From Vallitaleaceae bacterium 9-2 (GTDB lineage: Bacteria > Bacillota > Clostridia > Lachnospirales > Vallitaleaceae): a DNA stretch of 64,000 nt. Below the pieces are notes generated by a model. That model was not told where the DNA came from. It worked only from the letters and a program-made list of their open reading frames with translations, and ran no database searches. Shown here in pieces: positions 20,049-24,071 of this stretch. The position numbers were made by a program, and so were the translations under genes. The first letter of the stretch is position 1. Each line of letters begins with the position of its first letter. The stretch spans positions 806,001 to 870,000 of the forward strand of contig CP121691.1 of assembly GCA_038396585.1 (NCBI GenBank), given 5' to 3'.

Positions 20049-20078
20049 TGGACATTTAATCACAAAATGTGATAAGAT
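20049..20078 (+). promoter_or_regulatory. Promoter with embedded operator for the XRE-cobalamin/MutS operon
   Basis: TGGACA (20049-20054), 18 bp, TAAGAT (20073-20078) with an extended TGA. Between the two elements lies the perfect palindrome ATCACA-AAA-TGTGAT (20059-20073). An operator in the spacer is the classic position for a repressor, and the first gene encodes a DNA-binding regulator, so autoregulation is likely but inferred. Confidence 0.6.
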
Positions 20079-20095
20079 GTTTTTGAGGTGATTTA

Positions 20096-20956
20096 ATGAA
20101 ATCCTTTGGAGCTATACTCAAAGAAATACGAAAAGCACACCATATGAGTCAAAAGGAATTAGGCAAGCGCTTAGGTGTGGGGCAAACGACAATAGCAAAT
20201 TATGAAAAAGATATTCGTTTTCCAAATCAAGAGACCCTAATGATTATGGCGGATATATTTGATGTATCCGTCGATCAATTACTGGGTCGACAAGAACTTA
20301 AGATAAACAGCGAATGCATGGATGAAATACAATTAAAACAAACGCTTTTAGACCTTTTATTACGAGCAAAAGAGCGCGAAGCGATGGACGTTATTAAAGG
20401 ATATAAAGTAACCCGTGAAGAAATTATTCGTTTGTATGAAGGTGTTTTTCGCGCGTTACTCATAGACGTTGGTGTTCTTTGGGAAGAAGGTAAAATATCC
20501 ATTGCCAAAGAACACTATATCTCTGAGTGTATATGGCGTATGGTAAGCTATATATCTCAAGGTATTGAACGGGGCACATCTTCAAAAGGCAATGTGTTGT
20601 GTATGGCGTTATCAGGTGAGCAGCATACATTAGGCATACGTATGGTTGCGGATTATTTTAATTTACTTGGATATCATCCCTACTATATAGGGGCTAATAT
20701 TCCAACGGGAGAAGTTGTTGAGTTTGTGAAGCAAATCAAGCCCAGATATATAGCCCTATCATTGACAACACAGACCCTTAATGATGCACTGATTAACTTA
20801 ATTAAATGCTTAAAACAAACATGTGAATCCTGCACGATTATTGTTGGCGGTCAAGCATATGAAAAAAACAAAGGAATGATTCCCCAACAAGCAGATGAAT
20901 TCATAGATAGCTTTGAAGCACTTGAGGATTTGTTGAGGAGAACAGATGGAATTTAA
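20096..20956 (+). CDS. XRE-family regulator with CarH-like cobalamin-binding domain
   Basis: A 286-residue fusion of a Cro/C1 (XRE) helix-turn-helix (residues 5-64, 'MSQKELGKRLGVGQTTIANYEK') with a B12-binding cap (about 78-160) and a B12-binding Rossmann domain (about 165-280). The cap has the exact CarH motif W-x9-E-H (W129, E139, H140), and the Rossmann domain has the G-E-x-H motif with H177 as expected lower cobalt ligand. CarH proteins are MerR-type, adenosylcobalamin-dependent light sensors; here the DNA-binding part is a different family. The residue next to the cap Trp, which in Thermus CarH is the His that ligates cobalt after light, is E130. It overlaps the first MutS-like gene by 11 bases. 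Confidence 0.88.
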   Translation: MKSFGAILKEIRKAHHMSQKELGKRLGVGQTTIANYEKDIRFPNQETLMIMADIFDVSVDQLLGRQELKINSECMDEIQLKQTLLDLLLRAKEREAMDVIKGYKVTREEIIRLYEGVFRALLIDVGVLWEEGKISIAKEHYISECIWRMVSYISQGIERGTSSKGNVLCMALSGEQHTLGIRMVADYFNLLGYHPYYIGANIPTGEVVEFVKQIKPRYIALSLTTQTLNDALINLIKCLKQTCESCTIIVGGQAYEKNKGMIPQQADEFIDSFEALEDLLRRTDGI

Positions 20957-22511
20957 CAGTATTTTATGGCTTCATACGAGTGTCAAAAATCAAATTCATC
21001 ATAAAATTATTGAGAATCTCAATTTGGAAGAAGTTTATCAACAACTTCTTACAAATGATGAGATTCTTTATTCTTTATGTATGGATGTTCAAACGATTGA
21101 ATATCGTCAGGCTATTCTTAAGGACTTTATGAGCAATGAAGGACTCTTGGATGAGTTGATGAAGAGCTTAGAAGCTTTTTATCACTTAAAACCCTTGTAT
21201 CATTCAGAACTATATAAAGTATCTAATCTGTATCGTATTATTGATATGCTTATTATTATGGAAAAGGCAATTGACAGTTTAGAACAGCTAGATCAGATAC
21301 TGCGATACTATCGGTTGGAATCATCGGGATTAAAAAAACTATGCGATAGTGTGTATGCGAATATAGGTACCGATGAATATAAGGCAATGAAAAGGGATCT
21401 AAAGGAGATACACTATATATTTAGTTCGATTAAAGGGGCGACGCTATCGGTATCTATGACATCAGGAATGCGCCCCAAATTTGCTCAGGTAACGCAGATT
21501 GATCATCACCGATATCGATACCCTAAAGCCTTTCGACATGTGTCGGATGTCTTAGCGGATGATCAGACCTTTTTGGATCGGCGTATTTCAAGTTATGTTC
21601 CTGTTTTTAAAGTACAAAAAATGAACTATAATATTTTGGAAGAAATTGAGTATGCTTTACGTGAACATAAAGCTAAATTGGAGGCATTTATACAATCTTA
21701 TGAGCGTATTGATATAAAACCGTTTGTGCGGTTATATGAAGAAATTGCGTTTTATAGCTCCAGCTATAAGCTTTTTCACACATTACAAGAAAAAGGGCTT
21801 CCGATTACCAAACCAGAAATTGTAGCCAATGCGACATGCTTAGCGTTTGAGGATGGATATAATATTAATTTGGCTATAAAAGGTACAGTTGCACCGAGTG
21901 CGATTGTTCTAAATGGATTTGAGTTAAACGAAGAGCGAAAGTTTTTTCTGATAACAGGGGCTAATCGTGGAGGAAAGACAACTTATACACAGTGTATTGG
22001 ACAAATACAGCTCCTTGGTCAGCTTGGGTTATATGTACCGGCTAAGTCCGCTAAGATTAGTTTGGTTGATACTATAGAATCGCATTTTCCGGCGTTAGAA
22101 AATGAGTCTGTCGATAAGGGGAAATTTGGAAGAGAATGTGAAGTGTTTGTTGAAAGCTTTAAGCGTGTGACACCGCGTTCGATTATGCTTTTGAATGAAT
22201 CTTTTGCCGGGACAAGTCATCTAGAAAGTTTAAGTATTGCAACACAAGGTGTTGTTGCAATGATGCAAGCAGGTATTCCTTTTATCTTTAATACCCACTT
22301 GCATGAGTTATATGAAGAAGTATTAGCGGAATTGGAGCATAAAGGGTTGAGCACCTTAAAAGAGCACTTAATTAGTTTAACAACAAAGATGGAACAAGTT
22401 GACAGTACCTATGTCATGATTGAACAGGAACCGATGGGAAAAAGCTATGCAAGGGAAATTGCTATTAAATATGGGGTAACATATGAACAACTTATAAAAG
22501 ATATGTCGTAG
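20946..22511 (+). CDS. MutS-like ATPase, first of a tandem pair
   Basis: A 521-residue protein with the MutS core and ATPase regions only. The helical lever or clamp-like part (about 45-290, entered by 'IEYRQAILKDF' as in MutS domain III) leads to the ABC-type ATPase: Walker A G338-A-N-R-G-G-K-T345, Walker B-like 'IMLLNES' near 413-419, and the H-loop 'NTHLHEL' near 449-455. The Walker B Asp is Asn417, followed by the catalytic Glu418. There is no mismatch-recognition domain (no F-x-E) and no Smr nuclease domain, so it is neither MutS1 nor MutS2. Its start overlaps the regulator gene, with GAGGAG as ribosome binding site. Confidence 0.85.
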   Translation: MEFNSILWLHTSVKNQIHHKIIENLNLEEVYQQLLTNDEILYSLCMDVQTIEYRQAILKDFMSNEGLLDELMKSLEAFYHLKPLYHSELYKVSNLYRIIDMLIIMEKAIDSLEQLDQILRYYRLESSGLKKLCDSVYANIGTDEYKAMKRDLKEIHYIFSSIKGATLSVSMTSGMRPKFAQVTQIDHHRYRYPKAFRHVSDVLADDQTFLDRRISSYVPVFKVQKMNYNILEEIEYALREHKAKLEAFIQSYERIDIKPFVRLYEEIAFYSSSYKLFHTLQEKGLPITKPEIVANATCLAFEDGYNINLAIKGTVAPSAIVLNGFELNEERKFFLITGANRGGKTTYTQCIGQIQLLGQLGLYVPAKSAKISLVDTIESHFPALENESVDKGKFGRECEVFVESFKRVTPRSIMLLNESFAGTSHLESLSIATQGVVAMMQAGIPFIFNTHLHELYEEVLAELEHKGLSTLKEHLISLTTKMEQVDSTYVMIEQEPMGKSYAREIAIKYGVTYEQLIKDMS

Positions 22512-22520
22512 GGGTGGATA

Positions 22521-24071
22521 ATGAATAAGTCGTTAATGAGTTTGTTATGGAGTAAGGATTCAAGTAAAAAAACTATGACCCTATCAAAAAAAGATATGGA
22601 TGATATGGGGATTGAATGGTTTGTAGATTTTTTTCAAGGGGAGAAAAAGCAAAGTTTAGACACATTAATTCATGAAATTCCAATTGAAATCCAAGATATT
22701 AAATATCGTCAGAGTATCTTAAAAGACTGTGTGAATAATCCGCTACTGTTTGATAAACTGCTTTCATACGGACAAGATGCCTTCCATCAGATGACATTAA
22801 GCAAATTTGCATTTGAAAAAGAGGCGACTATTTACAACTTAATCAAAAGAGTGGCAGAAGTGGATGGGATTCGAAAAACGCTGGAAGATATTTTGCATAT
22901 GTTTGAACAGGCAACGATCGAGTCACAAGGATTAAAGCAATATCATCAACTTTTACAAGAAATTGTTGATTCCAGGATTTATGATGCGTTTATTCGGGAT
23001 GTTGAAATGATTAAATCGCAAGCGGCGGGTGTTAAAAGTATAAAAATCGGCTTGAATTTGGATGAATATTTGCAACCGATTGAAGCCATTTTACTAGATG
23101 TCAGTGAAGAAGTGTTTAAATATGGACGCTTTGATAAGAAAATGGAATATTATGCAGTAAAAGGCATGAAAGAAGTGATGCTGATTCCACGAAAAATTTT
23201 TGCAAAGGAAACGATTGCACCACCCGAAGCACTTAACAATTTAGAAAAAATTGTTGAGCCGGCCATGCTTCAACTTATTAGCTTTTGTGATCAGTTTACC
23301 CGTAAAATTCTTGAGGTTCTTAGTATTCTTCATGAGGACTTGCCGTATTATAGCGTCGGAGTAACAATGTATCAACAAATTACCGACCAAGGCTATATCA
23401 TGACATTGCCCAAGTGGGGGCAAGATTACAAAGCGAAGGATTTGTATCATCTGCATCTGGCGATGAAGCTCAAGCCAGATGAACTGGTTTTTAATACAAT
23501 AGAGTTAAGCAAAGATAAGCCGATTAATATATTGACAGGAGCTAATCGTGGCGGCAAGACGACAACGACACAAAGCATTATGCAAAGTATATGGATGGGG
23601 CAACTGGGATTTTTTGTAGCGGCAAAAGAAGTAGAGCTTCCTTTAGTTAGTGCGTTGAAGGTCCATTTTCCAAGAGAAGAAAAAGAGACGGTGGATTATG
23701 GACGCTTAGGTGAAGAATGTAACCGCTTTAAAGAAATGTTTGAACAAAGCTCTTCAACGAGTTTCTTCTTTATGAATGAGTCTTTTTCAGGGACGTCCCA
23801 CCATGAAAGCTTGCAAATCTCAGTAGAGATATTACAAGCCATATATCAAAGAGGTAGCTTTGTTTTATTCAATACGCATTTACATGAACTCGTTGAAACA
23901 TTGGAGAAAAAAATACCTCAAAAGAGTATTCAAAGCCTAATTGCGGGAAAAGATATGGATAAATCCCCCTATGTTATTGAACGCGGGCGACCCCTTGGAA
24001 AAAGTTATGGTATAGAAATAGCCAAAAAATATGGGATGAATTATGAGACGCTGATTCGTATACCCCATTAA
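22521..24071 (+). CDS. MutS-like ATPase, second of a tandem pair
   Basis: A 516-residue paralogue of the preceding protein, starting nine bases after it, with the same order: 'IKYRQSILKDC' core segment near residue 62, Walker A 'GANRGGKT' near 339, Walker B-like 'FFFMNES' and H-loop 'NTHLHEL'. As in its partner the Walker B Asp is Asn and the next Glu is kept, and recognition and nuclease domains are absent. Outside the ATPase motifs the two have diverged strongly, which suggests a fixed heterodimer like the eukaryotic MSH pairs; that is inference. The gene ends 15 bases from a convergent ArsR-type gene with no visible terminator. Confidence 0.85.
   Translation: MNKSLMSLLWSKDSSKKTMTLSKKDMDDMGIEWFVDFFQGEKKQSLDTLIHEIPIEIQDIKYRQSILKDCVNNPLLFDKLLSYGQDAFHQMTLSKFAFEKEATIYNLIKRVAEVDGIRKTLEDILHMFEQATIESQGLKQYHQLLQEIVDSRIYDAFIRDVEMIKSQAAGVKSIKIGLNLDEYLQPIEAILLDVSEEVFKYGRFDKKMEYYAVKGMKEVMLIPRKIFAKETIAPPEALNNLEKIVEPAMLQLISFCDQFTRKILEVLSILHEDLPYYSVGVTMYQQITDQGYIMTLPKWGQDYKAKDLYHLHLAMKLKPDELVFNTIELSKDKPINILTGANRGGKTTTTQSIMQSIWMGQLGFFVAAKEVELPLVSALKVHFPREEKETVDYGRLGEECNRFKEMFEQSSSTSFFFMNESFSGTSHHESLQISVEILQAIYQRGSFVLFNTHLHELVETLEKKIPQKSIQSLIAGKDMDKSPYVIERGRPLGKSYGIEIAKKYGMNYETLIRIPH

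Follow-up and report, generated by a model that had tools for sequence, protein, structure and literature searches.

The locus lies in a 64-kb stretch of the genome of an anaerobic bacterium, hereafter the window, and consists of three genes on the + strand, which we call REG, MUTA and MUTB. REG (20096..20956) encodes a protein of 286 aa with an XRE (HTH_3) and a cobalamin-binding domain, a predicted AdoCbl photoreceptor repressor. MUTA (20946..22511) encodes a MutS-like lever/clamp/ATPase protein of 521 aa with Walker A GANRGGKTT and Walker B LLNES, and MUTB (22521..24071) encodes a paralogous MutS-like ATPase of 516 aa. REG overlaps MUTA by 11 bases and a gap of 9 bases separates MUTA from MUTB; with all three on one strand, they form a single operon, as the initial annotation proposed. 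Starting from the 5′ side, the promoter region holds a −35-like TGGACA (20049..20054, +), the predicted operator ATCACAAAATGTGAT, a 15-base perfect palindrome (20059..20073), a −10-like TAAGAT (20073..20078, +) and the ribosome-binding site GAGGTG (20085..20090, +), so that the operator sits between the −35 and −10 elements. The congener G010 keeps TGGACA at the equivalent place and has TAAAAT in the −10 register, where other members of the regulator family have TATAAT. Gene order and operator are retained in this congener at 70–80% protein identity, and dN/dS values of 0.11 (REG), 0.06 (MUTA) and 0.07 (MUTB) indicate purifying selection. No riboswitch or other RNA was found in the 64-kb window.

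REG contains the Pfam domains HTH_3 (residues 8–62), B12-binding_2 (82–152) and B12-binding (167–259). A motif scan places GxxWx9EH at residue 126 (GVLWEEGKISIAKEH) and GEQH at 174, which together with the Pfam domains bears out the first reading of REG, a CarH-type B12 domain combined with an XRE domain for DNA binding. A longer motif, D/ExHx2G/P-x41-SxT/V-x22-27-GG, starts at E175 in the form ExHx2G-x41-SxT-x26-GG. In CarH, Wx9EH, part of the four-helix bundle, contacts the Ado group and the histidine of the longer motif is the lower cobalt ligand (PMC9304148). Furthermore, the set GxxW, EH, GxxH and GxxxP, by which a study with experimental tests recognizes light-responsive cobalamin domains (PMC11796333), is complete in REG (G126/W129, E139/H140, G174/H177 and G199/P203). 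Wx9EH is absent from four other B12-domain proteins of the same genome, namely two methyltransferase corrinoid proteins, MetH and a B12 radical-SAM protein. The best solved-structure matches of REG are the cobalamin-binding proteins 8j2w and 8j2x, which we take to be photocobilin; CarH entries match too, as does 8jbs. The last of these is CtMerR (PMC11796333). An alignment-free structure prediction for REG was of low quality (pLDDT 53) and was left out of the analysis. The NCBIfam CarH model gives REG 48.8 bits against a cut-off of 400. On sequence grounds, REG joins a CarH-like sensor to another kind of DNA-binding domain and is not CarH as a whole protein. It very probably senses light through B12, and we infer both cobalamin binding and a light response from its signature; the sensor half of our reading is well supported at this level.

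Whole-genome searches recovered colinear XRE-B12 proteins elsewhere in Bacillota, those of G500, G742, G822, G827, G836 and G838 coming from other classes than that of the window; the families of the neighbouring genes were checked by model. A UvsE UV endonuclease gene lies directly 3′ of the XRE-B12 gene in G385, genes for CofG and CofH (deazaflavin synthase) and a DICT protein lie beside it in G500 and G836, a DICT gene in G838 and G827, and a CrtI-family carotenoid desaturase gene in G822. The deazaflavin FO is a known antenna of photolyases. Other members adjoin chemotaxis operons (G742 and G003), a MacB-type ABC pair (G005) or type IV pilus genes (G006–G009); the pilus and ABC neighbours have no evident tie to light and count against the light reading. 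Control of pilT by XRE-B12 in G006–G009 was considered and rejected, the operator lying before the regulator gene alone. By motif scan, some members keep the whole light signature and others part of it: ER replaces EH in G827 and in G822, the member next to crtI, the glycine of GxxH is missing in several, and two further members (G500b and G416) have lost Wx9EH. In the literature outside subscription journals we met no description of XRE-B12 photoreceptors, a weak sign of novelty.

Two further groups of sequences touch on the extent of such sensors. A plasmid of Skermanella rosea (Alphaproteobacteria) encodes an XRE-B12-like ‘cobalamin-dependent protein’ (L355:8806-9858, +), which suggests that the architecture extends beyond Bacillota. 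Cobalamin-domain proteins of about 320–385 aa without an HTH (L157–L164 and L349:6002-8054) probably form another light-sensing family; most of their genes are tightly paired with a sensor-like gene that comes next.

The promoters of XRE-B12 genes share a candidate operator, ATCACA-N3-TGTGAT. An exact match to ATCACANNNTGTGAT occurs once in the 3.8-Mb genome, at the window operator (20059-20073), and the exact reverse complement of ATCACAAAATGTGAT lies 5′ of the XRE-B12 gene of G838, a member of another class. Sites with at most two mismatches to ATCACANNNTGTGAT are found within 200 bases upstream of 13 of 17 XRE-B12 genes. Leaving out G385, with 37 bases upstream on its contig, and G500b and G416, with degenerate B12 motifs, the operator is present at 13 of the 14 genes that have usable upstream DNA and an intact domain, compared with 6 of 236 control upstream regions, a set that includes regions retrieved for matching the operator; the exception, G836, has three mismatches. 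Counted per genus, the figure is 9/10 (Fisher p ~ 6e-12, a descriptive value, as the motif was first noticed within this same gene set). Because distant members share the operator, kinship of intergenic DNA is not the explanation. TATAAT directly follows the site in several loci, and divergent neighbours have operator copies of their own (the DICT gene in G827 and cheY in G003). The predicted operator suggests repression by REG because it is placed between the −35 and −10 elements.

One-mismatch operator sites in the same genome lie mostly within genes. One, placed as a promoter element would be, sits between TTTACA and TATAAT, 50 bases 5′ of an HlyD-like gene that opens an operon of HlyD, FtsX/MacB permease and ATPase genes (G000:C1:2122984-2126153 = L354:8984-12153, − strand). 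In G005, homologues of the two (40% identity for the permease, 53% for the ATPase) lie downstream of the XRE-B12 gene and in one operon with it (L346); in G351 and G154 (L165 and L166), homologous permease/ATPase genes lie 3′ of genes for free cobalamin-domain proteins. This linkage provides independent support for the operator and points to a likely second regulon member, and the exporter operon is probably co-regulated with REG. The initial suggestion of a switch by light is well supported by the complete light signature of REG, by what lies beside the genes of its relatives and by the shared operator.

MutS_V is the one Pfam domain above cut-off in MUTA and MUTB, and neither protein matches the MutS domain I model or Smr, in agreement with the earlier description of MutS-type ATPases that lack the mismatch-recognition and Smr domains. 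The mutS1 model scores 76 bits for MUTA and 62 bits for MUTB against a cut-off of 641.7, and the MutS2 model scores 49.8 and 56.9 bits against 400; the closest specific NCBIfam model is KamC, with 71.1 and 82.5 bits against an equivalog cut-off of 300. Walker A and the H-loop are kept in both proteins, and Walker B reads NE for DE. The predicted structure of MUTA (pLDDT 82, with low confidence in clamp region 194–227) aligns with the MSH2 core (Z 33.8, 375 residues, rmsd 3.2) and with MutS2 (Z 31.6 for 9a5o and 29.1 for 7qv3, a disome complex). As modelled, MUTA has the lever–clamp–ATPase fold of the MutS superfamily, the clamp part being poorly predicted. MUTA is found in 9/22 genomes of the host family, and MUTB adjoins it in all nine. 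In a quick, midpoint-rooted tree, MUTA and MUTB form two fully supported clades that are sisters, so the pair arose by duplication. The same tree puts other MutS-like pairs, including an archaeal one, in separate clades and groups KamC with MutS2.

Several other MutS-like arrangements were seen in the course of these searches. In one relative (L209:4038-7388, +), two MutS-like cores are fused head to tail in a chain of 1116 residues, an arrangement that fits a working dimer for such pairs. Clostridia and an archaeon share another pair of short MutS-like genes, which does not resemble MUTA/MUTB (L043:303-3355, −; L085:606-3673, +). In three genomes of one genus (L037:6363-7685, L038:10220-11572 and L041:10104-12686), the MutS pair comes after a rubredoxin/NADH oxidoreductase, which in one case is fused to a flavodiiron protein, and has GDT1-type exporters next to it; these neighbours may point to oxidative stress. 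Where short MutS-like genes occur singly, in rumen Clostridia, the genes around them offered no hint of function, and our search of the literature outside subscription journals found no classification of short MutS families. A defence system was also considered and rejected, as PADLOC returned no match of note for MUTA or MUTB.

The idea of a conserved three-gene system, put forward in the initial annotation, fails by that annotation’s own criterion, which was that related clusters should not seldom have all three genes side by side. Six genomes of the host family from other genera carry the pair without the regulator and without the operator, no operator lies 5′ of MUTA outside the window’s genus, and XRE-B12 genes elsewhere adjoin other genes. 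Linkage of REG to the pair is seen in one genus only, and in G003 and G005 the XRE-B12 gene and the MutS pair occupy separate loci. The best reading is that, in the window’s genus, the regulator was recently put in charge of the MutS pair and that the linkage is local; the idea of a light-regulated operon survives the fall of the conserved system.

The occurrence of the pair without REG in those six genomes would also fit an autoregulated regulator that inserted neutrally 5′ of an unrelated pair, with light control of little weight. Because the flanking genes are common to G010, synteny alone may explain why the genes adjoin within the genus. However, the 11-base overlap and 9-base gap leave no space for a separate promoter between the genes, and the arrangement and operator are retained at 70–80% protein identity; we consider this explanation unlikely.

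MutS-like ATPases are not bound to DNA work, as KamC and MutS2 exemplify, and B. subtilis MutS2 acts on collided disomes. Light control could then be right and MUTA/MUTB could act on ribosomes, rescuing translation on photodamaged RNA in the manner of MutS2. MUTA fits MutS2 almost as well as MSH2 and, like its partner, has no mismatch domain, but MutS folds are all alike, the Smr part is missing from both proteins and MutS2 joins KamC in the tree, which leaves a ribosomal role quite improbable. Least probable, and in our view very unlikely, is that REG senses AdoCbl supply or redox and that MUTA/MUTB reactivate a B12 enzyme as a chaperone like KamC, the reactivase ATPase for lysine 5,6-aminomutase: KamC is the closest specific NCBIfam model (71 and 82 bits), but these scores are far under the cut-off of 300, true KamC loci (n = 4, L350–L353) score far higher and hold one MutS-like gene with a P-loop KamB-like gene and aminomutase genes, the window ORFs next to MUTA/MUTB include neither KamB nor aminomutase genes, KamC lies with MutS2 outside the MUTA/MUTB clade, the genome has no further PF02310 protein fit to be KamE or an aminomutase B12 subunit, and the neighbours of REG relatives are not B12 genes. 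A KamBC-type reactivase was rejected accordingly, on gene order, tree and scores.

On balance, we think it probable that a light-released AdoCbl XRE repressor controls a heterodimeric MutS-like clamp in photo-stress. In the dark, AdoCbl-loaded REG would occupy the palindrome in the −35/−10 spacer of its own promoter and block transcription; light would break the Co–C bond, REG would leave the DNA, and REG, MUTA and MUTB would be produced. The HlyD–MacB-type exporter operon, with its matching promoter operator, would probably be under the same control. The likeliest product of MUTA and MUTB is an obligate heterodimer, a clamp ATPase of the MSH2 kind that lacks a domain for reading mismatches; in photo-stress it may survey or remodel nucleic acid, DNA being a likelier substrate than ribosomes. 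Among the supports that favour the light reading is a DNA photolyase gene of the phr2 type in the same genome (L348:6654-8048, +; G000:C1 ~1085653-1087047). MutY-like glycosylase and exonuclease III-like genes lie close to it.

Similar to REG, CarH/LitR, the MerR-type AdoCbl photoreceptor repressor, has a B12 domain with GxxWx9EH, GxxH and GxxxP and an operator over promoter elements (predicted for REG), and in both families relatives lie near genes for a carotenoid desaturase and for UV repair. The DNA-binding domain is MerR in CarH and XRE (HTH_3) in REG, and the CarH operator consists of tandem 11-bp direct repeats with TnnACA, as opposed to the one 15-bp palindrome predicted for REG. The HTH-CBD and photocobilin proteins of SignatureFinder also join a light-responsive cobalamin domain to an output domain, with HTH named among the outputs, whereas that text (PMC11796333) gives no description of the XRE type, the operator or the neighbour genes. 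MUTA/MUTB share the lever, clamp region and ATPase fold of the MutS/MSH2 core (domains III–V), a dimer-forming family, but have no mismatch-recognition domain I and no connector, and the Walker B Asp is Asn (NES). MutS2 likewise has no domain I and a similar core, and differs in its Smr nuclease domain and separate tree branch. KamC is a MutS-like ATPase of similar length, but is a single gene with KamB and KamDE, and MUTA/MUTB fall under its cut-off.

More tentatively, and with rather less confidence than we place in the reading of this operon, XRE-B12 proteins may be a second, independent family of AdoCbl photoreceptor repressors in anaerobic Bacillota, acting through one conserved palindromic operator over UV-repair, deazaflavin, carotenoid and chemotaxis genes, with a MutS-like clamp captured here as a light-induced machine for nucleic-acid surveillance. 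If true, light sensing by B12 would reach past MerR-type CarH to XRE regulators of anaerobes, the predicted operator could be used for regulon mapping, and an XRE-type green-light switch would be of use in optogenetics. Light would also be the first condition under which to seek a function for the widespread, unstudied short MutS-like proteins.
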